Under the pieces are notes generated by a model, which worked only from the letters and a program-made list of their open reading frames with translations, was not told where the DNA came from and did not search any database. A DNA stretch of 64,000 nt from an uncultured Acidobacteriia bacterium (GTDB lineage: Bacteria > Acidobacteriota > Terriglobia > Bryobacterales > Bryobacteraceae): assembly GCA_903929755.1 (NCBI GenBank), contig CAIYVZ010000019.1:1-64000 (forward strand), given 5' to 3'. Shown here one piece after another: positions 115-60,902 of the stretch (the stretch's first letter is position 1; each line of letters begins with the position of its first letter). Position numbers and translations under genes: made by a program.

Positions 115-2343
115 GTGATCGACATCGTCGGAATACACAGTTTTCTCGTCTTGATGGGCGTCAGCATTGCGGGCTTATCGTGGCGTTTCCCCGGCTTTAT
201 GCGGGCGGGTGTCGATTACTCGCTGAACAGCACCATTCACGAACGCCTGAACGCTTCCTTCATGCTTCTTTACTGGATGGACTGGGTTGGGCGCCAGACT
301 CCGGACGGGAAGAACTTCTATTCGTTCGATTCGGCTACATCGAGCGACGCCTTCGACCAGGCTCTCATCGAATACCATAAGGGGAATTTCGTTGGTGCCA
401 CGAAAGGCATTCAGGACGTGATTGCCAGCTCCGGTGAAACGGAGAAGAGGGTGTTCTGGCTGGGCATGGCGCAGCTTCGGCGGGGTGAATCTGTGAACTG
501 TCTTCCCAATGTCATGATGACGGGGGACCACGTCATGGACATGGACCACGCACAGTACTGTGCCTTACCGATCCGGAAGTATCATGACGACCCCCAATAC
601 GCCCGTGCGGCCGCCAAGACTTTCCTTCACCTGATTGAAACCTGGGGCAAGGACAACCGCCTGTACCACTGGCTGCTGAACTACGCCTGCATGACCTCGA
701 ACGATTTCCCGCAGGGAGTGCCACCTGCTTATCGGGTCAGTGCAGCGTTCATGAGCCGCTTTTATGGCGAGGGCAAGGCGCAAGCGGAGCGGGAGTTCGC
801 GAATATCCGCTTCGATGAGCGGGGCGCCGAACTAGGCGTGAATGTTCATAACGCCGGACGGGGCGTCGCTATTGAGGATTTCGATCTCGACGGCCACCTT
901 GACATGATTACGGGTGGCAGCTTTGATAATCTCCGCTACTTTCACAACAATGGGCACGGCGGCTTCGACGACTGGACAGAGCGCGGCGGCTTTGGAGGCT
1001 ATCGCCAACCATTTTTTATCACCGTCACAGACATTGATAACGACGGTGCGCCCGATATTCTGGTGACGCGCATGTTCCACGATGGCGTAACGCTCTACCG
1101 CAATAAAGGCGACGGAACCTTCCAGGACGTCACAGAGGCCTGGGGCCTGCCGGTCCACCGTGAAGATAATGCACTTTCATCCGCCTGGGGCACAGCGTGG
1201 GGGGACGTCAATAACGACGGCAAAATCGATCTCTTCATTTCCCGTCTCGGCATGGAAATCCCGTTCACGCAGGGCCTGCTGAGCCGCCCGCGCTTTTACT
1301 CCGCACTCTACATCAACGAGGGCGGCAGGTTCGTAGAGCGCACGAAAGAATATGGCCTGTCCGCCGTGGTGCGCGACAAGTATTTCATCGGGGCGGCGTT
1401 CGGTGACTTCAAGAACAATGGTTACCCAGGGTTATACCTTTCCAGTCCCATCATCAACGAAAGTGTCTTGCTGGAGAATCTTGACGGTAAACGTTTCGAA
1501 GTCTCGGATGCCTATACAAAGTCGAATGGCGGCTTTGTCGGGTCTTTTCTGGACGTGAATCACGACGGCAGACTCGATCTCTTTCAGGGGGGGTTCTCCG
1601 ACGCGAGGTCCAGCGTTGAGATGGGCATGTTTGGCGCAAACCCTGACGATTACCGCTCGGGGAAAAGCACGGTCCTGGTCCAGCAGCCGAACGGGAAGTT
1701 TGAGGAGATCAGGGGGTTCTTCGATATGCCGGGGGGCACCATGGGGTCTTCGTACGGTGACCTGGATAACGATGGCTGTTACGACTTCTACCTGGGAACA
1801 GGTAGCCCCGAAGGCTGGTTCATCTATCCCAAGATGATGTACAAGGGCATTCCGGACGGTAATGGTTGTTCGCTGAAGACCGCGAATATCTCGATGACGA
1901 ATAATTTCGCCAGTGTTCAGAAGGCCCACGGTATCGTCTTCTTCGACTTCAATGAAGATGGCCTGCAGGATATTTACTCCAGCCTTGGCGGCATGTGGCC
2001 TGCTGATCGGTGGCCCAATCAGTTCTTCGTCAACCGGAGTGTAACCACGAACACATGGATCAAGCTTCGCCTTCGTGGTCGCAGTACTAACTCTTTTGGT
2101 ATTGGTGCCCGCATCAAAGTAACGGCTCACGATGCCGCCGGGGGTAAGATCGTGCGCGAAGCGCTGGTTGACCAAAAGACAGCCTTTGGCAGTGGCCCCT
2201 ACCTGACGCAGATTGGGTTGGGTAAAGCGGTTGCGGTGGATTCTACTGAGGTCTACTGGCCTGTGTCCCGTTGTCGCCTGAGCTACCCAGTAACACTGGG
2301 CACGCTCACGGTACTGGACGAAGCCGCCTGTCCGTCGCGCTGA
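115..2343 (+). CDS. FG-GAP/VCBS repeat protein with C-terminal ASPIC/UnbV domain (CRTAC1-like)
   Basis: The 742-residue protein has a hydrophobic N-terminal segment (about residues 8-22), a helical stretch to about residue 230, then several FG-GAP-type calcium-binding repeats of the form DxDxDGxxD (for example DIDNDGAPD, DVNNDGKID, DVNHDGRLD, DLDNDGCYD). It ends in an ASPIC/UnbV domain (about 645-735, with SFGIGARIKV, ALVDQKTAFGSG and VYWP). The repeats predict a beta-propeller that is exported or membrane-anchored, probably for binding at the cell surface; no enzymatic role is known for the family. The GTG start follows an in-frame TGA at once. An in-frame ATG at 154 is an alternative, and a 10-bp direct repeat GATCGACATC (92-101 and 117-126) straddles the start, so the true N-terminus is uncertain. 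Confidence 0.85.
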   Translation: MIDIVGIHSFLVLMGVSIAGLSWRFPGFMRAGVDYSLNSTIHERLNASFMLLYWMDWVGRQTPDGKNFYSFDSATSSDAFDQALIEYHKGNFVGATKGIQDVIASSGETEKRVFWLGMAQLRRGESVNCLPNVMMTGDHVMDMDHAQYCALPIRKYHDDPQYARAAAKTFLHLIETWGKDNRLYHWLLNYACMTSNDFPQGVPPAYRVSAAFMSRFYGEGKAQAEREFANIRFDERGAELGVNVHNAGRGVAIEDFDLDGHLDMITGGSFDNLRYFHNNGHGGFDDWTERGGFGGYRQPFFITVTDIDNDGAPDILVTRMFHDGVTLYRNKGDGTFQDVTEAWGLPVHREDNALSSAWGTAWGDVNNDGKIDLFISRLGMEIPFTQGLLSRPRFYSALYINEGGRFVERTKEYGLSAVVRDKYFIGAAFGDFKNNGYPGLYLSSPIINESVLLENLDGKRFEVSDAYTKSNGGFVGSFLDVNHDGRLDLFQGGFSDARSSVEMGMFGANPDDYRSGKSTVLVQQPNGKFEEIRGFFDMPGGTMGSSYGDLDNDGCYDFYLGTGSPEGWFIYPKMMYKGIPDGNGCSLKTANISMTNNFASVQKAHGIVFFDFNEDGLQDIYSSLGGMWPADRWPNQFFVNRSVTTNTWIKLRLRGRSTNSFGIGARIKVTAHDAAGGKIVREALVDQKTAFGSGPYLTQIGLGKAVAVDSTEVYWPVSRCRLSYPVTLGTLTVLDEAACPSR

Positions 2344-2442
2344 TGCCGGTGGGCGGGGACCGGTAAGGCCGCTACATCCAGTTTCGATACTGCTCCCGGC
2401 GAAGTGGGCATTGAATGTAAACAACGTGCCAAACAGCCAAAC

Positions 2443-2841
2443 TCAAACTTTGGAGGTTGGTTGCGTGGCGATGTGTCGTTCTGACAGATAAGCCGAACTC
2501 GTCAATACGATCCCCGTGCCGAGTACAGCCAAAACGACAATAAAAAACGTTTCCTGCGTATAAAAATACAGCGCCAGCGTGGCGATCCACATGGGGACTC
2601 TTGCAATCAGCGTGGCACGGTAAAAGTCTTTGTTCCCGAACCGGATAATGTTCACGACCACCGTGGCAAGGCCGATCATGAGAATTCCAGAAAACCGCAC
2701 AAACGCGCCAGGGTACTCCCTGGTGGCGAATGCCAGTTTCAGGAAAAGATCAGGAACGAACAGCAGGGCCAATCCAGTGATTAGCAGATATGAAGCAAGA
2801 TAGAACAAAGTACGTCGGGTTTTGGGCATTGTGTTCGGCAT
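2443..2841 (-). CDS. Small four-helix membrane protein, unknown function
   Basis: This is a 132-residue integral membrane protein with about four hydrophobic helices (LFYLASYLLITGLALLF, a central FSGILMIGLATVVVNII, an ALYFY helix and FFIVVLAVLGTGIVL). The start at 2841 is chosen because AGGAAGAG lies just upstream of ATG and the hydrophobic part begins soon after; the longer open frame would add about 40 non-membrane residues. I do not recognise the family with certainty. It stands alone, convergent with the FG-GAP gene, and there is no operon partner to suggest a job. Confidence 0.7.
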   Translation of the reverse strand: MPNTMPKTRRTLFYLASYLLITGLALLFVPDLFLKLAFATREYPGAFVRFSGILMIGLATVVVNIIRFGNKDFYRATLIARVPMWIATLALYFYTQETFFIVVLAVLGTGIVLTSSAYLSERHIATQPTSKV

Positions 2842-2982
2842 GATGGACTCTTCCTGTAAGCTTAGGCGACCGCATGCGGTGGTCTGCCCGCGTGAACGAT
2901 TATACTCACCACGGGTCTTCGTCGAGGGCGGCAACATAATGGAGGCGCCAAGCTTACGCATGTCACTTGTTCCGGTGACGAC

Positions 2983-3402
2983 CTACGATGCCGTTAGTTT
3001 GTCACTAAAATAGCTTTTCATCGGTTCCCAGTAGAAATCGAGCCATCCCTGGGTGTAGGAATCGGCCTGTGAACCCGGCACTCTGGAGTGCACGAGCGTA
3101 ACCTGGGTTCCTCCGTTCCTGGGTTCGAAGGTCCATTCCACTTGCGATGGTTCGGCTCCTTCGGGCCATTCTGTGGTTAGCCACGTTTGGAGGATCCGTT
3201 TCCCTGGGTCAAGTTCGAGGATATGACCCGAGATGTAGCCATCCCACGCAGTGAAATCGCTGCCAACCGCGGCTTTCCCTGTGGCTTTGCTGCCGATCAG
3301 CTTGCTGTGCTTCCTGCCGTCGAGCAGCGCGTCGTAGACTTCCGTTGGCTGGGCGCCCTGGATCAATTCACTCTGCCGGATGGTTTTCGTAGGTGTGGAC
3401 AT
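2983..3402 (-). CDS. SRPBCC / AHSA1-type START-like domain protein
   Basis: The 139-residue protein is one SRPBCC fold of the activator-of-Hsp90 (AHSA1) type. An early helix carries a PTEVYDALLDGRKH motif, followed by GSDFTAWDGYISGHILEL and QTWLTTEWPEG, and the C-terminal long helix ends in QGWLDFYWEPMKSYF. Such domains bind hydrophobic ligands or client proteins in the cytoplasm; the ligand cannot be read from sequence. It is only 8 nt from the end of the 644-residue exported protein and could be the last gene of that minus-strand transcript, though it has no signal peptide and may be separate. Confidence 0.85.
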   Translation of the reverse strand: MSTPTKTIRQSELIQGAQPTEVYDALLDGRKHSKLIGSKATGKAAVGSDFTAWDGYISGHILELDPGKRILQTWLTTEWPEGAEPSQVEWTFEPRNGGTQVTLVHSRVPGSQADSYTQGWLDFYWEPMKSYFSDKLTAS

Positions 3403-3409
3403 GTTTGCC

Positions 3410-5344
3410 TTAGGGCAGAATAACCGTCGCCGGCGGATTATTGGCCCCCGAGAGGACTACGTTGGACTGGGCATCCGGGTTTTGATAAACCAGAATTCCC
3501 GTATACGGCGCGCCCGGCGCCAGGGAAATGTTGACGGTAGCAAAGCGCGGGAGTGCGTCCGACGCATCCTTGCTCCAGGGTCCGAAACCGCTGAAGGTGA
3601 TGGTGTCGTAATCACCGGGCTTGGCCGTGGAATTCAGGGTATTGGTGCAGGAAACCGCTGCCAGGCTCTTCATGGTGAAGGTGCCGCCGGAAGTTCCGCT
3701 GTTGCCGTTCGTGTAAGTAAACGAGAACGGAGCGGCAAACGCGTTGCAGGGTATGGAGAAACTGTAGTTGATGCTGTCTCCCAGACTGGAAACGAAGCTG
3801 CCACTGCCTGTCTTGACGGAGGTAGGTTGATCGATGGGATGCGCTGCCTGGACGCGGACGAAGATGTCGAGTTTGGCATTAGGTCCGCCGATGTAAGAGT
3901 TCGCGAAGAGCAGATCGGGAGACGGGAACCGAAACGTGGCAAAAGAGCGGTTATGTTCACCGCTGTAACGGAACACCGTTTCTCCGTTCGGGCCCTTCTG
4001 GAACAGAGCGTAGTTGGACTCGGCTTCGCCAGCGCGGGGTTGCCCGGCGATGAGGAAGAAGGGGTCGGTTGAAATGCGGCCCGCATTTTGGGCGAAAAGG
4101 GCTTCCGCCAGACTCTGGCCGATGAAGATGGGGTATTCCATTTCGCCGATGACGCGCCCAGTGTTCAGATCAATGGCGCCATGGATGACACCGAAGGGTT
4201 CGTCTACAAGCGCCACGCGCTGCAGGTAATACGTGGCCTTGGGGAACTTGAGGAATTCCTGCTGCCCGATCAAGCCTGGCTGGAAGCCTGGTCCTGTAAT
4301 GCTGCTGACAGGTGCGGTGGCAAAGAGTCCGGCCGGGGTCAGGCTCGCCATCGTGAAAGAGACGGTATTGCCTTCGCGAGGTCCGAACTGAACCCCGATC
4401 CGGCCCTGGACGTGGGAACGACCGGGCCCGACGCCGCCCAACTGGGGTACATCGATGTCGAAATTATCGCCGAAATTGGAGAAGAATGAGGCGACTGTGA
4501 ACTCCTGTTGGGTATCGGTCGGGATGTCGGGGCAATTGCTGCCGCAAGGTGTTCCGATCGGGGCCGCAGTGTCGAGGAAGAGGTGGGGGTGGAGGCTGGT
4601 GCCACGGGCGAGTACACTGGCGCAGTTGCCGTCAGGACTGCAAAATGGCAGCGGGAAGCGAACCGGGTCACCTTCAATATCTTTGCCAAGGGGCAGGAAG
4701 GTATTGCCGCGGAAGCGGAAGTCCAGCAGGCCGTCGGGGCGTTGCTTGAAGGTGGCCCATGCATGACCCCGTGTGCCGGGGAAATTGATGACGGGGCGTT
4801 TCAGCTTTGGGTTCACGGCCGCAATGGCGAGCAGGGCAGTGTTGGTGAGGTTTGCGTACCAATCAAGATTGGTGACGCCTCCGGTGGTGAGGTCGAGGTC
4901 ACCTTGGGAAAGTCGAATGGAATCCGAAACCGTATGCAAATACATGGGCATGGAGTAGCCCAGCGGAGCAGACAGAACGCCATCATCGCCGTTCAGGAGG
5001 TGCATCTGCACTACGAAATGGGAGATGTTGTTTAGAGGCGGGTAGAACTGAATAGTGATATTGCCCGTGAGGTGACTATCGGTGATCACCAAGCCGCCGA
5101 ACAGTTGGTTGCCACAGATTCCGTAGGGCAGATCCGCGTCGTTCGTGCAGTCGACGGCACGCAGAGCATCCCCGAAAAAACTGGATTTGTGGTTGACGGG
5201 GAGCGTTTGCACCAGGCCGGGCGGCAGTTTAAGAGGCGTGGCCAGGGGCGGGAAATAGAGGGTGAGTTCAGCCCGGGCGGTTCCGTTCAGGACACCGGTC
5301 ACCAGGCCCATTACGAACAGCGATTTTGTTATTGCACGTTTCAT
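3410..5344 (-). CDS. Exported protein of unknown function, 644 aa
   Basis: A signal peptide is clear (MKRAITKSLFVMGLVTGVL... ending TARAE, about 25 residues). The mature part is beta-rich and low in charge, with paired cysteines such as VDCTNDADLPYGIC and CGSNCPD that suggest disulfides in the cell envelope. I do not recognise a domain. Its start is 18 nt downstream of the SGNH-like gene and on the same strand as the FadL-type porin, so it is probably co-transcribed with them. A role as a surface or secreted partner of the porin is inference from position only. Confidence 0.75.
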   Translation of the reverse strand: MKRAITKSLFVMGLVTGVLNGTARAELTLYFPPLATPLKLPPGLVQTLPVNHKSSFFGDALRAVDCTNDADLPYGICGNQLFGGLVITDSHLTGNITIQFYPPLNNISHFVVQMHLLNGDDGVLSAPLGYSMPMYLHTVSDSIRLSQGDLDLTTGGVTNLDWYANLTNTALLAIAAVNPKLKRPVINFPGTRGHAWATFKQRPDGLLDFRFRGNTFLPLGKDIEGDPVRFPLPFCSPDGNCASVLARGTSLHPHLFLDTAAPIGTPCGSNCPDIPTDTQQEFTVASFFSNFGDNFDIDVPQLGGVGPGRSHVQGRIGVQFGPREGNTVSFTMASLTPAGLFATAPVSSITGPGFQPGLIGQQEFLKFPKATYYLQRVALVDEPFGVIHGAIDLNTGRVIGEMEYPIFIGQSLAEALFAQNAGRISTDPFFLIAGQPRAGEAESNYALFQKGPNGETVFRYSGEHNRSFATFRFPSPDLLFANSYIGGPNAKLDIFVRVQAAHPIDQPTSVKTGSGSFVSSLGDSINYSFSIPCNAFAAPFSFTYTNGNSGTSGGTFTMKSLAAVSCTNTLNSTAKPGDYDTITFSGFGPWSKDASDALPRFATVNISLAPGAPYTGILVYQNPDAQSNVVLSGANNPPATVILP

Positions 5345-8368: not shown

Positions 8369-8992
8369 TCAGGGGGTCACGCGTTTGATGGTGAACTTAA
8401 ACACCAAAGGGCAGGCGGGTGGTCCTGAGGGACACTGGGCCGGATCGGTAACAAAGCGAACCGGGGGGGTCAGCAGGGGGGCAGTCTCCGGGGGCAAATC
8501 AGGAAACTGATTTGCTGTCAGGCTCTGCCAGGCCATCGGGATTTCCGGCCCGAAGAAGATATTGACATAGCCCTGCATGGTGTCCCAGCGAACCGTAGAT
8601 GCCTGCCACCGGAAGCGGAGCCCGGTAACGCTGGTGGGAACGCTGGCGGGGAGCATAAATACGTAGTCGGCAATAATGTCGGTGCCGCTGGTGGGAATCC
8701 ATTTGCCGTGGGCGGTGGTGTGTGGGCCAAATGGCGGTCCACCCAGGGCCAGGCTGTCGTTTCCGAGGAATTCCCCGTTTGGATACAGTGTGGGCGTCAT
8801 GAACAGGGCCACTTTGAAGCAACTGGCCTCAGGCGGGGCGCACAACTGTACTGCCTTTCCGAACCAGGCGCCGACCGCGGGATGTTCATACAGGGGTTTG
8901 GCGGTTGGCATCTGGGCGGTTGCTGTCCAACTCAAAGCGAGCGCAGCCGCCAGCATGCGGCCTCCCGCTGCGTGGTGCAATCTGAAAGTCAT
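8369..8992 (-). CDS. Exported protein of unknown function, 207 aa
   Basis: A short charged start, a hydrophobic core (MLAAALALSWTATAQ) and a cleavage-like AQM give a signal peptide of about 27 residues. The mature region has two cysteine pairs (LCAPPEASC and QCPSGPPAC), probably disulfides, and is predicted beta-rich. No family recognised. It is 30 nt downstream of the 200-residue exported protein and precedes the FadL gene, so it belongs to the same envelope-directed transcript. Confidence 0.7.
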   Translation of the reverse strand: MTFRLHHAAGGRMLAAALALSWTATAQMPTAKPLYEHPAVGAWFGKAVQLCAPPEASCFKVALFMTPTLYPNGEFLGNDSLALGGPPFGPHTTAHGKWIPTSGTDIIADYVFMLPASVPTSVTGLRFRWQASTVRWDTMQGYVNIFFGPEIPMAWQSLTANQFPDLPPETAPLLTPPVRFVTDPAQCPSGPPACPLVFKFTIKRVTP

Positions 8993-9022: not shown

Positions 9023-9625
9023 TTAGTCGATTGGCCTGGGGTAGGCTTTGATGGCAGAGGTAATTACCCCAACATTATCTGAGTAAATTTCGCCATAGAG
9101 ATTGCCGATGGCACCGCCGACGGGCCTCGTTGAATTGCTGCCAATCATTTTGCACGGAAACTTGCGACCCACCAGGAACGCATACTTACCGCTGCCCTGC
9201 AGTGTCGTGTAGGTGCCAACCAGCGGACCGCCGGTTGGCGACATTAGATTGCCCAGCGGATTGGTGCTGTCAGCGAGTGGGGTCAAGAGGAATCGACCGG
9301 TTCCAACATGGGAAAAGAGGATCTGGTCGCCATCGACGTCGGTGATCAGGACTCGGTTATCGAACTTGATGGTGCTCTGCGAGGTCGGGATGAATTGAAA
9401 ATTAGTGATGGAAGTGCCAGCGATGGCACCTTCCACGGTCCCCATATGGGTGCCAATGCCGGTGTTCGTATCAAAGGTGATCACGGCGTCGCGTTGGGCG
9501 AAGAACAACTGCAGGCCGCTGTTGAAGACAGCCTGGGGTTGCAGGTCGTCATGGGCACTGGCGGCAGCGGCGGTGATTCCGCCCATGGTCAAAATTCCTG
9601 CCAAAACGTTGCGTCTGTTTTGCAT
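9023..9625 (-). CDS. Exported protein of unknown function, 200 aa, first gene after leader A
   Basis: The N-terminus MQNRRNVLAGILTMGGI followed by a small-residue stretch (AAAASAHDD) resembles a signal peptide with an R-R pair, but not a full Tat motif. The mature part is beta-rich, with FDTNTGIGTHMGTVEGAI and a DVDGDQILFSHVGTGRF segment that looks like a lipocalin-like or allene-oxide-cyclase-like barrel; this is weak. GGAGGAG lies about 10 nt before ATG, a strong ribosome site. The conserved leader element A ends 17 nt upstream, making this the gene most likely controlled by it. Confidence 0.7.
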   Translation of the reverse strand: MQNRRNVLAGILTMGGITAAAASAHDDLQPQAVFNSGLQLFFAQRDAVITFDTNTGIGTHMGTVEGAIAGTSITNFQFIPTSQSTIKFDNRVLITDVDGDQILFSHVGTGRFLLTPLADSTNPLGNLMSPTGGPLVGTYTTLQGSGKYAFLVGRKFPCKMIGSNSTRPVGGAIGNLYGEIYSDNVGVITSAIKAYPRPID

Positions 9626-9641: not shown

Positions 9642-9941
9642 GTAATTGATTAACGAGCCGCCGGAAGCAGGGTACCTGATCCAGCGGGTCTATGGATGAG
9701 GCGGTGACGGAAGTCCCTCCGTACCACCAGTTGTAAGTCTCGGCGGTGGCAAGGCCAAGGCCAAGACATGCTTCGAAACGGTTTTTGGTGAGTCCACTTG
9801 GGCAGGCCCACTGCAGCACAACGCCCTGATCGTGGAATCATCTTCATCTGTTGTAATATTTATAGCTCATGTAAGGATTTTTGAGTTATAAAAAATACTC
9901 TATTGGCAAAGTTTGTGAGTACCGGGCATCATAGTACTGTC
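9642..9941 (-). promoter_or_regulatory. Conserved promoter-plus-leader element, copy A
   Basis: Read on the minus strand, this 300-nt segment aligns end to end with 58816-59154. The first 30 nt (9941-9912) contain GACAGTACTAT, three bases, then GCCCGGTACTCACAAA, with GTACT twice at 15-nt spacing. An AT-rich stretch follows with TATAAATAT (9864-9856), a possible -10. From 9811 down the sequence is highly conserved and can fold. One helix pairs GTCTTGGC (9767-9760) with GCCGAGAC (9744-9737). A 29-nt hairpin (9728-9700) has arms GGTGGT/ACCGCC and ACGGA/TCCGT around loop GGGACT. The element ends just before the Shine-Dalgarno of the 200-residue exported protein. No known riboswitch class is recognised. 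Confidence 0.7.
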
Positions 9942-10310
9942 TGGCATCGCCTCTGGTGCCGGACGGACTGTGCCACGCCCTCAACTTCATATCGAGAGGT
10001 CGCTAATCCATTACTCTCCTCCTGTGTGCATCTGAAAACGCGCAGGCTAAGAAATGCCATCGCGAAAACGTGGCATTCCGGTCGCACAATGGCGACGTCC
10101 TGGTTTCTCAGAGGTATTTGTGGGTTGACCAGCCTTAGGGGGCCGGCCGACTGGGTTATTGATTGCCCGCACTAGCGGCGGCAATGTTCTCGTAACCCGG
10201 CCTTAGCCTACACCCGATTACCTAGCACGTAAATGGCCAGGACGGGGTCGCCTTATGGCGCAATCGAGGGCACTGGCACTCAGAGAGTCTGTCAGGGGAT
10301 AATACGTTAG
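9942..10310. other. Intergenic region with a possible structured segment at 10145-10202
   Basis: No credible gene is seen between leader A and the plus-strand operon; the 90-codon open frame here has no ribosome site or gene-like composition. A compound stem can form at 10145-10202: GGCC (10145-10148) and GGGTTA (10153-10158) pair with TAACCC and GGCC (10193-10202) across a 4-nt bulge. Inside, ATTGCC and CGC (10062 positions on, 10162-10170) pair with GCG (10175-10177) and GGCAAT (10180-10185) around loop ACTA. It could be a leader or small RNA of the downstream UbiB operon. One copy only, so no comparative support. Confidence 0.4.
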
Positions 10311-40253: not shown

Positions 40254-41570
40254 ATGAGCTCGGCCAACGTTGACCGTCACGCGTCCTTCAATAAGTCCAA
40301 AATCTTCCTCGTAAGCGTCCTCGCCCTCGTCACTGCCGGTATGGCAGCCTCCCTGCGCGCCGACATCGCGAGTGAACTCCAGAAGACCTTCTTCGACCCC
40401 ATCGATAAGGCGCATTCCGCCGAAATGATCGGCTCCGTGCTCGGCGTGCCCTTTCTCGGCTTCGCCATCACCATCGCGCTCGGCAGTCCCCTGCTCGACA
40501 TCATTGGCATGGGCCTCCTCCTGCCCCTCTCCGCCGTCTGCTTCATCCTCGGCACCCTCACTATCCTGTTCGCCAACACCCTCGCGTCCGGCCCTGGCAT
40601 CTATAACGTGATCTGGATGGGCGCCGTCATTACCGGCATCGGCTGGGGTCTGGTCGAAACCGTCGTCAACCCCCTCACCGCCACCCTGTACCCCGATGAC
40701 AAGACTGCCAAGCTCAACGTTCTCCATGCCTGGTGGCCCGGCGGCCTCATCATCGGCGGCCTCCTCGGTTACTTCCTCGGCGAAGCCCATGTCTCGTGGC
40801 AGATCAAGCTCAGCCTCATCCTCATCCCCGCCATCGCCGTCATCGTTCTCTGCATGGGCCTGAAGTTCCCACCCACCGAACGCGCCGCCTCCGGCATCAG
40901 CATGGGCGACATGTTTAAGGAATTGCTGAAGCCCATGTTCCTGGTCCTCTTCTGCTCCATGTTCCTGACCGCCGCTTCCGAACTCGCGCCCGGCCAGTGG
41001 GTCGATCTCGCGCTCACCCGCACCGTCCACATGCAGGGTATTCTGCTGCTCGTCTACGTCTCCGGCATCATGTTCGTCGCCCGCCACTTCGCTGGCCCCA
41101 TCGCCCACAAGCTTTCGCCGATGGGCCTGCTCTGGTGCTCCTGCGCTCTGGCCGCTCTCGGCCTCATCGCGCTCAGCATGGCCAACTCGCCCGTCACCGG
41201 CATCCTTGCCGCCACCATCTGGGGCTGCGGCGTCTGCTTCATGTGGCCGACGATGCTCGCCACCGCCTCCGAACGCTTTCCCCGAGGCGGCGCTCTCCTC
41301 ATGGGCCTCATGGGCACGGCCGGAACGCTCTCCATCAACTTCGTGCTCCCCCACATGGGCAAGATCTTTGACAGCAAGAAAATCGAGCTCGCCGGCAGCG
41401 ACGAAGCCTTCAAGGCTCTCACCGGCGACAAGCTCGACTCCGTCCTGGGGCAGGCCTCGCAGGCCTCCTTCCAGGCCGTCGCCATCCTCCCCGCCATCCT
41501 GCTCATCGTCTTCGGAGCCATCTGGTTCTATGACCGCTCTAAGGGCGGCTTCAAAGCCCAGAAGCTGTAG
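40254..41570 (+). CDS. MFS transporter, FucP-like sugar porter
   Basis: The protein has 12 predicted helices. The GLVETVVNPLTATLYPDDKTAKLNVLHAWWPGG segment is the fucose/glucose-galactose porter signature, and LGVPFLGFAITIALGSPLLDIIG supports it. ATG at 40254 is preferred; an upstream ATG at 40233 lies in the same frame. The sugar imported is unknown, but amylase and sugar-modifying genes are near. Confidence 0.85.
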   Translation: MSSANVDRHASFNKSKIFLVSVLALVTAGMAASLRADIASELQKTFFDPIDKAHSAEMIGSVLGVPFLGFAITIALGSPLLDIIGMGLLLPLSAVCFILGTLTILFANTLASGPGIYNVIWMGAVITGIGWGLVETVVNPLTATLYPDDKTAKLNVLHAWWPGGLIIGGLLGYFLGEAHVSWQIKLSLILIPAIAVIVLCMGLKFPPTERAASGISMGDMFKELLKPMFLVLFCSMFLTAASELAPGQWVDLALTRTVHMQGILLLVYVSGIMFVARHFAGPIAHKLSPMGLLWCSCALAALGLIALSMANSPVTGILAATIWGCGVCFMWPTMLATASERFPRGGALLMGLMGTAGTLSINFVLPHMGKIFDSKKIELAGSDEAFKALTGDKLDSVLGQASQASFQAVAILPAILLIVFGAIWFYDRSKGGFKAQKL

Positions 41571-58301: not shown

Positions 58302-58801
58302 CTACCGAACCTGAAGTAATTCGGCATAGAACTTGTGCATCCGGTCACCCGAGAGGTTGATCCGCAGCCCCAGTTCGTCCGTGTTCATTTGATCGGCCAG
58401 TTGCTCCTTGCCCGCGCCACCAGCGTATCCAGCTTTGTCTTCAGCCTGGCCACATCGGCCTGTGTCACTACGGCTCCCGTGTCGGGCACCGCAACATCGA
58501 AGTCCAGCTTCAGAATGTCTCCCAGTACCTCTCCCCAGCCCGCCAGGCTTCCGCCCGCCGCGAAATCCGGGAAGAACACCACGGTGTCGCCATTGGTGTG
58601 GGCGTTTCCGAAATCCAGCAGGTTCGCCTGTTCCTGTGCCAGCACCTTAGCTCCACCTGCCAGCAACTCGGTATTCAGGCTGGTGTGCTCTCTATGGTAA
58701 TCGGTGTTAATCAAAACGCGCACGGCTTGGTCAGAAAATGAGACCTTGTGGGTACGCCCCAGCAGCGCTTTGTAGTTTCCTGGCAGCTTGCCTTCCACCA
58801 T
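58302..58801 (-). pseudogene. Frameshifted, N-terminally truncated metallo-beta-lactamase-fold hydrolase
   Basis: An open frame (58801-58385) reads VRVLINTDYHREHTSLNTELL and GNAHTNGDTVVFFPD, the degraded HxHxDH and AHT...P segments of the MBL fold; His and Asp of the first motif are changed to Asp and Glu. The N-terminal beta strands are missing. After a stop near 58385 the frame shifts and continues DQMNTDELGLRINLSGDRM to a stop at 58302. It is a remnant. It ends next to leader copy B. Confidence 0.65.
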
Positions 58802-58815
58802 AATCAGCCCGCCCC

Positions 58816-59154
58816 GACAGTACTATTGGGCCCGGTACTCACAAAATTAACCAACAAGGTATTTGTTTTTGCACGAATCTGGTTATATAAGATATAAATG
58901 TTAACAGAAGTATAAGTAACGCTAGGATAAGGCCGTTTTGCTGCCGTGGGCCTGTCCAAGTGGACTCACCAAAAAGTACAAGGAAGTAAAACAACAAAGG
59001 AAACGCTTACTCGCAGCAACGCGTTTCATAGCATGTCTTGGCCTTGCCACCGCCGAGACTTTCAACTGGTGGTACGGCGGGACTGCCGTCACCGCCTCAT
59101 CTTTAGACTCGCTGCATCAGTTACCCTGCTTCCGACGGATCGCTAATGAATTAC
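58816..59154 (+). promoter_or_regulatory. Conserved promoter-plus-leader element, copy B
   Basis: This 339-nt segment aligns end to end with the minus strand of 9941-9642. The box GACAGTACTAT, three bases, GCCCGGTACTCACAAA (58816-58845) is nearly identical, the AT-rich part with TATAAATG (58893-58900) is the same length but diverged, and from 58946 the match is close. Insertions are 45 nt here after 58974 and 6 nt in copy A. Hairpins: GTCTTGGC (59035-59042) with GCCGAGAC (59052-59059), and 59068-59096 with arms GGTGGT/ACCGCC and ACGGC/GCCGT around loop GGGACT. The acyltransferase ATG (59146) lies inside the conserved segment. Confidence 0.7.
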
Positions 59155-60243
59155 TTCAGTGCCGTGCCCGATAGCCCCCGACTTTTGGCTGTTTCGTCGT
59201 TTCGCTCAAATAGCAGTAACCTGGATATTATCCGGGCCGTCGCCGTGATGAGTGTCTTCTTCGCCCACCTTAGGGGTCTCTTAATGCGAGAAGAATCCCT
59301 CACCGCATGGCACTTCGCCCAAATGGGCGTACTTACTTTTTTTGTCCATACCAGCATGGTGCTCATGTTCTCCCTGGAGAGAACACAACTCTTCGGTCGA
59401 GACCGGTTTCTTTCCTTTTATTTACGGAGAATATTTCGCATCTACCCCCTAAGCATTTTCTGCGTGACCGTGGCAATGGTTACACATCGAACTCCCGACA
59501 TTCTGGATCCTTTTGCCTATTGGACAGGCAAGCAATACTTCGTTAACCTGGCGCTTCTCACAAACCTGTTTTACGTCCGAAATATGGTGGGCGGACTCTG
59601 GACTTTGCCGATCGAAGTGCAAATGTACGTCACCCTCCCTTTTTTGTTTCTCTTGGGCCGCAGGTGGGGCTTGTGTGGCCTGATGCCTCTCTGGATACTT
59701 TCGGTCCCGCTGGCGATGCTTCAGCTCCACTACACGCAAAGACTGAATATGTTGGGTTTCGCACCCTGCTTTATCGGAGGTGTGATCTCATGGAACCTCT
59801 CGACCAGAGTTCCCCGCCGCCTGCCGGGCTGGCTCTGGCCATTCGCTTTTGTGGCGACCTGGCCGGTGTTTTTCGCCGCCCAGCATGAAACGGATATGCC
59901 CTTCCGGTGGGCATTTTGCTTTTTGCTTGGGCTGAGCATCCCGTGGTTTCAGGAGATTAACTGCGCGCCCCTACAGTGGCTGGCCCACGTACTGGCAAAA
60001 TACAGCTACGGCGTGTACCTTTCGCACATCGGGGTTATTCTCTGGTGCTTTTCCCTGCCCGTGCCCAGGGTGGTGCAATGGGTAGTCTTTCTGCCGCTTG
60101 CTTTCGTGGTGCCCTTCGCGCTCTTTCATTTGGTTGAAGATCCCATGATAAAAGCTGGCCAAAGGCTTTCAAACCGAATGTTCCGAGATTCCTCTGCGAT
60201 AACTCTTGAGGCTGGGGCTGATACGATTCGACGATCTCGTTAA
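59146..60243 (+). CDS. Membrane acyltransferase 3 (OafA/NodX type)
   Basis: The 365-residue protein has about 10 membrane helices, opening SNLDIIRAVAVMSVFFAHLRG, the family start with the key His, and ending LVEDPMIKAG near the last helix. Such enzymes O-acylate surface sugars or lipids. Composition is lower in GC than neighbouring genes. ATG at 59146 lies in the leader element; GTG at 59161 and later codons are alternatives, and no good ribosome site is visible before 59146. Confidence 0.85.
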   Translation: MNYFSAVPDSPRLLAVSSFRSNSSNLDIIRAVAVMSVFFAHLRGLLMREESLTAWHFAQMGVLTFFVHTSMVLMFSLERTQLFGRDRFLSFYLRRIFRIYPLSIFCVTVAMVTHRTPDILDPFAYWTGKQYFVNLALLTNLFYVRNMVGGLWTLPIEVQMYVTLPFLFLLGRRWGLCGLMPLWILSVPLAMLQLHYTQRLNMLGFAPCFIGGVISWNLSTRVPRRLPGWLWPFAFVATWPVFFAAQHETDMPFRWAFCFLLGLSIPWFQEINCAPLQWLAHVLAKYSYGVYLSHIGVILWCFSLPVPRVVQWVVFLPLAFVVPFALFHLVEDPMIKAGQRLSNRMFRDSSAITLEAGADTIRRSR

Positions 60244-60902
60244 CGGTACCTACGCGGCCGAGTACACCGCTTCGGGATCTCAGAACTCCGCACGGAGCGG
60301 GTGACGGGCAAAGTGTCATTCAGCGTACCCTATGGCATCCGCCGTAACCGGAAATTTGAGCCACGGCACAACAAGCGGAGTTTTGATTACCACGACGGTC
60401 GGCGCACAACCTCGTGATGTCAATGGTTGTTACCAGGCGGTCGAGTTGGTTGCGGAGGACCGAATGCAGAATGCGCAAGGTGTAAGGCTCGGTCTGAAGG
60501 CGCGCCTTACAGGCATCTCCATAAGCTCGGCGAGATAGCTTTTCGACAGACAGAGTATGCCGAGACCGGATCGCTATCCGATCTCGGCATGCTTCATGGC
60601 CGCGAGAACCGCTTCCGCCAGTTCGCCGGTGAAGGTCCGACCAGCAGCGCATCGTCCATTTAGGTGACGGAGGACGGCACCGGTACTTTTGGTGGGCCGT
60701 AGAACCTATCCAAACAGAATCACTGCATTTCCAAGTGAGCCGCAGCCAGCAGGGAGATGGTGATCTGGAGACACCGCGCCTCTCATGAACATTACGTTCT
60801 GCGAGGGGCAGATGCCTGAATTCCCCCATCTATCCCATTCTCCCTGCAAACTGCGATGGTGTTCCCCGCAGGAGGAGTCTAACCACATGGAAGCGGACTG
60901 GC
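60244..60902. other. Intergenic region with a 40-nt hairpin, no gene seen
   Basis: No convincing coding sequence is visible in 660 nt; the minus-strand open frame has poor composition and no start signal. At 60554-60593 AGTATGCCGAGA pairs with TCTCGGCATGCT, and CGGAT with ATCCG, around loop CGCT, a 17-bp stem with one mismatch and no T-run. It could be a transcription end, a repeat remnant or a structural site. Strand composition changes sharply across the region. Confidence 0.5.

Follow-up and report, generated by a model that had tools for sequence, protein, structure and literature searches.

A pair of long upstream repeats, here called A and B, belongs to a family of five copies, none of which was seen in the relatives searched, and this family is probably a lineage-specific, non-autonomous mobile promoter-leader cassette whose copies have been kept as promoters of envelope genes. 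Both repeats lie in the analyzed stretch of 64,000 nt (hereafter, the window; C19:1-64000), and the genome searched for further copies, G000, comprised 6.86 Mb in 212 contigs. The whole cassette, about 250-340 nt long, would consist of an operator-like box of two AGTACT-type half-sites, a fixed-length spacer with TATAWAT, and a hairpin-bearing leader. Copies landing before genes of envelope or exported proteins would have been retained as promoters, a single DNA-binding regulator that recognizes the box would control the downstream genes jointly, and expression would then be fine-tuned by the leader where it is retained (A, B, and partly C). A candidate mover, offered as a lead only, is a TnpA of the IS200/IS605 type working in trans.

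Copy A as a whole occupies positions 9642..9964 of the minus strand. Its 5' edge is the limit of homology with copies C and D, and its 3' end (...AATTAC) lies just ahead of GGAGGAG, a Shine-Dalgarno-like site belonging to the gene that opens a FadL operon. Copy B was delimited at 58816..59154 of the plus strand by alignment with A and by BLAST. In a global alignment, A (9941-9642, minus strand) and B (58816-59154, plus strand) were identical at 242 of 291 aligned columns; the large indels were 45 and 6 nt, and the opening 137 nt had equal length in both, just as the initial annotation of this DNA had described. Cheap gap costs introduced extra small compensating gaps in the early leader of this alignment. 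Its score of 928 was reached by none of the random window stretches, at most 300 in number, the best of which scored 232, and BLAST found the homology with an E-value of 7.7e-49. The same annotation had seen a conserved 30-nt box, a diverged spacer, and a conserved leader, a picture that agrees with the identities of 27/30 in the box, 28/47 in the spacer, 10/11 in the -10 region, 37/41 in the leader core, and 119/133 in the remaining leader. The early leader was identical at 21/29 columns in the global alignment and at 15/31 in the multiple alignment. The box and later leader together matched at 183/204 columns versus 59/87 for the spacer, -10 region, and early leader (Fisher p 1.3e-5), and the variance of identity over 20 columns was equalled by 18 of 10,000 shuffles.

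BLAST of the genome returned A, B, and two further sites. Copy C (C123, two pieces within 1115-1276) contains the promoter and a shortened leader without the segment holding both hairpins, and copy D (C139:28625-28705) contains the promoter only. A promoter profile built from A-D recovered these four and added copy E (C78:5570-5685, E-value 2e-16), which has the promoter and the first ~55 nt of the leader; the full leader is present in A and B. Copies C, D, and E all precede genes for exported or membrane proteins, in line with the proposal, made for the original pair, that more copies should be sought upstream of surface genes. A leader profile detected fragment F (C211:4410-4454, corresponding to L032:2909-2960; E-value 0.001), a solitary piece of 41-45 nt that resembles the 3' leader hairpin and lacks the promoter. 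The same profile also matched the start of the E leader (E-value 0.15 in the genome search). A short box pattern had four matches in the genome and missed copy E. The closest pair was C and E, with 83% identity over 158 nt. Additional homology of 23-28 nt upstream of the box was found in A, C, D, and E and is absent from B. A separate 48-nt repeat with 81% identity is shared by window positions 41187-41232 and the contig of copy D (L007:2500-2547).

Box A (9912..9941, minus strand) carries the half-sites AGTACT and GGTACT, 15 nt apart, the distance being 16 nt in C and E; box B lies at 58816..58845 (plus strand). The -10-like TATAAAT was found at 9858..9864 (minus strand) in A and at 58893..58899 (plus strand) in B, and its distance from the box is constant within 1 nt in all five copies: from the first AGTACT-like half-site to the end of TATAWAT there are 81, 81, 80, 80, and 80 nt in A-E. 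Pairwise identity among the copies ranged from 42% to 76% in the spacer, from 73% to 100% in the -10 segment, and from 60% to 90% in the box. In some pairs the box is hardly better kept than the spacer (18/30 and 24/45, respectively, between A and E), and its constant part is the half-sites. Since no common -35 was seen across the copies by eye, the simplest assumption is that an activator acts at the box, and the fixed-length spacer ending in TATAWAT is probably part of an activator-dependent promoter. The box-spacing-TATAWAT pattern had no matches in 100 shuffles of the window; it was written from the five copies, and matching it is therefore no independent test. Just upstream of the box, copy A has an imperfect inverted repeat (9943..9960, minus strand) that is lacking in B; only copy D has it as a perfect palindrome, with 6-bp arms. 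The folding z-scores of this repeat were -1.4 in D and +0.4 to +0.9 in A, C, and E.

The leader of copy A (9642..9850, minus strand), predicted to be transcribed, includes the core GTTGTGC..CACCAAAAA, two tandem hairpins, and a 3' hairpin. In copy B, hairpin 1 (59035..59059, plus strand) has 8 bp, and hairpin 2 (59068..59096, plus strand), which had been noticed in the initial annotation and was found again here, has 12 bp with one bulge and one double change relative to A, C-G to A-U. The 3' part of the B leader (59104..59154, plus strand) is the one with a relative, F, elsewhere in the genome. Folding z-scores of the tandem hairpins were -2.8 and -3.3 with DNA parameters, and 39 of 40 cells were paired in A and B versus 30-62.5% when the structures were slid; the covariation, drawn from two sequences only, was equalled by 255 of 500 shuffles and is not separable from chance. 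For the full leader, the z-scores were -2.6 in A, -0.3 in B, and -0.9 in C, the latter two being little better than shuffles, and for the 3' hairpin they were -3.1 in A, -1.0 in F, +0.2 in C, and +0.9 in B. A search of the A-D loci against Rfam 15 at E-values up to 5 gave two matches, both below the gathering score and outside the element.

All five copies are oriented toward the start of the next gene, and A and C stop, as judged by eye, just ahead of a Shine-Dalgarno-like site. The start codons noted earlier after each copy are ATG 9625 for A and ATG 59146 for B; the latter, the listed start of the B gene, falls within the repeat and is provisional. Family matches and the look of the N-termini also support the earlier assignment of A to an exported protein heading the FadL operon and of B to an acyltransferase. 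The first gene after A (9023..9625, minus strand) encodes a 200-aa exported-looking protein with no match in Pfam or NCBIfam, and is followed by the gene of a 207-aa protein, FadL (PF03349, 6672-8180), and a protein with a sub-threshold GDSL match. The 207-aa protein (8369-8992) is also exported-looking; it has a relative in genome G007 and no match in the syntenic operon of genome G003. Copy B precedes a membrane acyltransferase of the Acyl_transf_3 family (59146..60243, plus strand). The gene after C encodes a PEP-CTERM protein. The product of the gene after D looks exported and combines lipase-like, InlB-like, and TIG domains; that of the gene after E, likewise exported-looking, has collagen repeats and a Soli_cterm domain. 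The five products belong to different families or to none, and by family match or the look of the N-terminus all five are exported or membrane-like. A hydrophobic N-terminus was found in 5/5 targets and 34/78 background ORFs at a cutoff of 1.6 (f^5 0.016), in 5/5 and 28/78 at 1.8 (f^5 0.006), in 2/5 and 25/78 at 2.0, and in 1/5 and 19/78 at 2.2, a crude measure whose background consisted of crude ORF calls that included both window targets. The export or membrane bias of the targets is suggestive, not strong. Beyond the acyltransferase gene, a 40-nt palindrome (60554-60593, 85% self-complementary) separates it from the next long minus-strand ORF.

BLAST against 150 relatives left 149 without a match; the one weak match of 39-46 nt, in G024 (E-value 6e-4), was dropped after inspection by eye revealed neither a box nor a promoter. 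The promoter profile with strict filters had zero matches in 120 relatives. A match of the leader profile in one of 40 relatives (G015, E-value 0.016) was likewise discarded, no box or promoter being visible by eye. The short box pattern gave five single matches in five of 150 relatives, and its backward control gave 10. No match to the element was found in plasmids. Phage origin was rejected, the only match being 27 nt long and located in a phage polymerase gene, and viral contigs had no match to the box-spacing-TATAWAT pattern. In genome_contigs, a set from which records near the window's genome were possibly left out, this pattern matched one stretch; it belongs to a gammaproteobacterial bin, is an array of AT-rich repeats, and is not the element.

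In four congeners the DNA ahead of the A-gene orthologue is unrelated to that found here, and the same is true of the acyltransferase orthologue in the one genome compared. A syntenic comparison, which covers locus A only, was made with the congener G003. That genome has the A operon (minus the 207-aa gene), then a conserved stretch which we interpret as a small divergent gene, and, farther out, the kinase gene. The interval before the A gene measures 206 nt in G003 versus 685 nt here, and the element is absent in G003. The element explains 323 nt of the 479-nt excess, and ~156 nt are left over. Taken alone, this pair would also be compatible with loss in G003 instead of gain here.

Signs of insertion, of unequal strength, are present in the flanks at all five loci. 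Beside B lies a metallo-beta-lactamase-fold pseudogene (58385..58810, minus strand) missing its N-terminal part, equivalent to the first 56-71 frame residues of the relatives, and two internal stretches; six of seven relatives match it from 58810 onward, a position 6 nt away from box B, and the seventh from 58819. Upstream of E, a remnant of an IS200/IS605 tnpA with two in-frame stops spans profile positions 34-117 of 126 (NCBIfam) or 28-114 of 121 (Pfam). It scored 73.7 bits as an IS200/IS605 transposase (cut-off 55) and 17 as a REP-transposase (cut-off 80). The remnant has no start and ends at L031:3574 (NCBIfam) or 3586 (Pfam), while homology of the E element starts at 3571; because only 7-9 positions are missing at its end, truncation at the edge of E is not certain. 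A tnpA-related piece of 74 nt, 84% identical to this remnant, was found ~0.5 kb past the B gene (60739..60812, minus strand). No mobility enzyme could be linked to the element beyond these remnants near B and E, and the element itself encodes no transposase, being too short for one.

Downstream of D, the C-terminus of a VapC protein begins at about L007:4767, ~55 nt past the end of element homology (4713). This remnant corresponds to residues 98-131 of 132 of a solved VapC (E-value 5e-5) and matched NCBIfam with an E-value of 8e-8, under the whole-protein cut-off. About 290 nt before D there is what we take, by its look, to be a VapC-like start, for which the searches gave no match. Copy C and its PEP-CTERM gene sit between collinear partial duplicates (L006:633-1007 and 2266-3016), one a decayed partial copy and one another copy of the neighboring gene region, as if both had entered by recombination. 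Terminal inverted repeats were not found in A, B, and C, whose end-versus-end scores were equalled by 423, 984, and 753 of 1000 shuffles; D and E, incomplete on the 3' side, were left out of this test. Flanking direct repeats were not seen by eye at A, B, and C. The sequence GGAGGAGA on either side of A (~10023-10016 and 9641-9634, by eye) was considered as a target duplication and rejected, since it does not fit the 5' edge common to the other copies.

Given that G003 lacks the element and that genes around the copies are broken or duplicated, insertion or rearrangement is indicated. The earlier statement that the repeats are not a transposon holds as far as the lack of a transposase and, in A, B, and C, of terminal inverted repeats is concerned, but in view of the flanks it is not supported. 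The element seems to be a dispersed element and a promoter at the same time.

The mobile cassette kept as an envelope-gene promoter is favored by the five copies, the empty G003 interval, the broken or duplicated flanking genes, and the fixed spacing between box and -10 despite spacer divergence; against it stand, among other points, the missing leader in D and the mostly missing one in E. Its most serious competitor, which we consider rather unlikely, is a decayed selfish element, PATE- or MITE-like and perhaps moved by TnpA in trans, in which the box and -10 would be element parts and the downstream genes incidental. Such an element would account for the gene remnants bordering or close to B, D, and E, the partial duplicates around C, the tnpA remnant beside E with its 74-nt relative past the B gene, the solitary 3' hairpin fragment F, and a length too short for a transposase. 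It fits poorly with five of five copies facing a gene start, with A and C ending (by eye) right before a Shine-Dalgarno-like site, with a -10 and spacing retained while the spacer diverged, and with the lack of terminal repeats and a 5' palindrome that folds well only in D. The view of the initial annotation, a stationary regulatory region shared by surface genes, would make the copies old duplicated promoters with no mobility. The regulatory half of that view gains from the five copies, their constant spacing, and the exported or membrane-like products of all five targets; its non-mobile half is unsupported, given the unrelated DNA upstream of congener orthologues (four genomes for the A gene, one for the acyltransferase), the G003 interval that is syntenic but has no element, and the broken genes at the edges of copies, and as a whole we regard it as improbable.

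Two further readings place the weight on the presumably transcribed part. A cis-acting RNA switch or attenuator duplicated together with its promoter would agree with the A/B conservation of the leader core and later leader over the spacer and with the stable, almost completely paired tandem hairpins. The loci of A-D had no Rfam match within the element, however, C lacks both hairpins, D and E lack nearly the whole leader, and the covariation is no better than that of about half of the shuffles, which makes this explanation very improbable. That the conserved part encodes a small protein was suggested by indels of 45 and 6 nt, both multiples of three, and by one frame open in both A and B, but in that frame 9 of 12 changed codons are non-synonymous, and inspection of copy C by eye showed an in-frame TAG and a 7-nt gap; this reading was already disfavored and is barely credible.

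Mobile promoters are homologous upstream regions that stand before non-homologous genes, have been gained at their loci relative to relatives, and drive transcription. The family described here has such homologous regions before non-homologous genes in five copies, and gain relative to a relative was observed at copy A, the one locus compared. Mobile promoters are an established kind of element (Matus-Garcia et al. 2012, as cited in PMC4596501). As in the putative mobile promoters, similar upstream DNA with a promoter-like site precedes unrelated genes of one genome; unlike them, the cassette combines an operator-like box with insertion signs, envelope-looking targets, and, in some copies, a structured leader. 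Correia repeat enclosed elements of Neisseria and BrickBuilt of Porphyromonas gingivalis, both described with inverted repeats (PMC2649163 and PMC4596501, respectively), are also dispersed, non-autonomous, and able to supply promoters to neighbors. The cassette differs from these and from MITEs by the absence of terminal inverted repeats in the three copies tested (A, B, and C), and from Correia elements and BrickBuilt by having five copies that all face a gene.

The nearest element type by anatomy is the palindrome-associated transposable elements (PATEs) of Haloquadratum, which are related to IS605 (PMC3119063). Like them, the cassette (in A, B, and C) is without terminal inverted repeats or target duplication and too short for a transposase, and it has a predicted hairpin near its 3' end and IS200/IS605 tnpA remnants close by. 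Unlike in PATEs, the 5' palindrome appears to have been lost in most copies, and a promoter function is suggested. With REP palindromes and their transposases (PMC8049555 and PMC3733652) the family shares dispersed hairpins and TnpA relatives, but its unit is far longer, and the remnant at E scores as IS200/IS605 and not as a REP-transposase. The literature searched, consisting of excerpts that included passages of PMC3174227, contained no report of this cassette family. It is unusual in that an operator-like box, fixed promoter spacing, a structured leader, and envelope targets occur together.

The mobile promoter-leader cassette admits a more specific history, which we regard as possible but short of probable: a mobile operator-promoter-leader cassette may have assembled a small regulon of surface-protein genes within one species, with selection keeping the -10, the spacing, and the half-sites as the remainder decayed. 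Each insertion would have delivered the same box, promoter, and, at first, structured leader to a new envelope gene, and at B the cassette would perhaps even have supplied the gene's start codon. How regulators gain unrelated genes is usually inferred only afterwards. Five loci at different stages of decay, one of them with a relative lacking the cassette, would make the growth of a regulon by a moving promoter directly testable, through the parts kept and lost and the joint response of the five genes.
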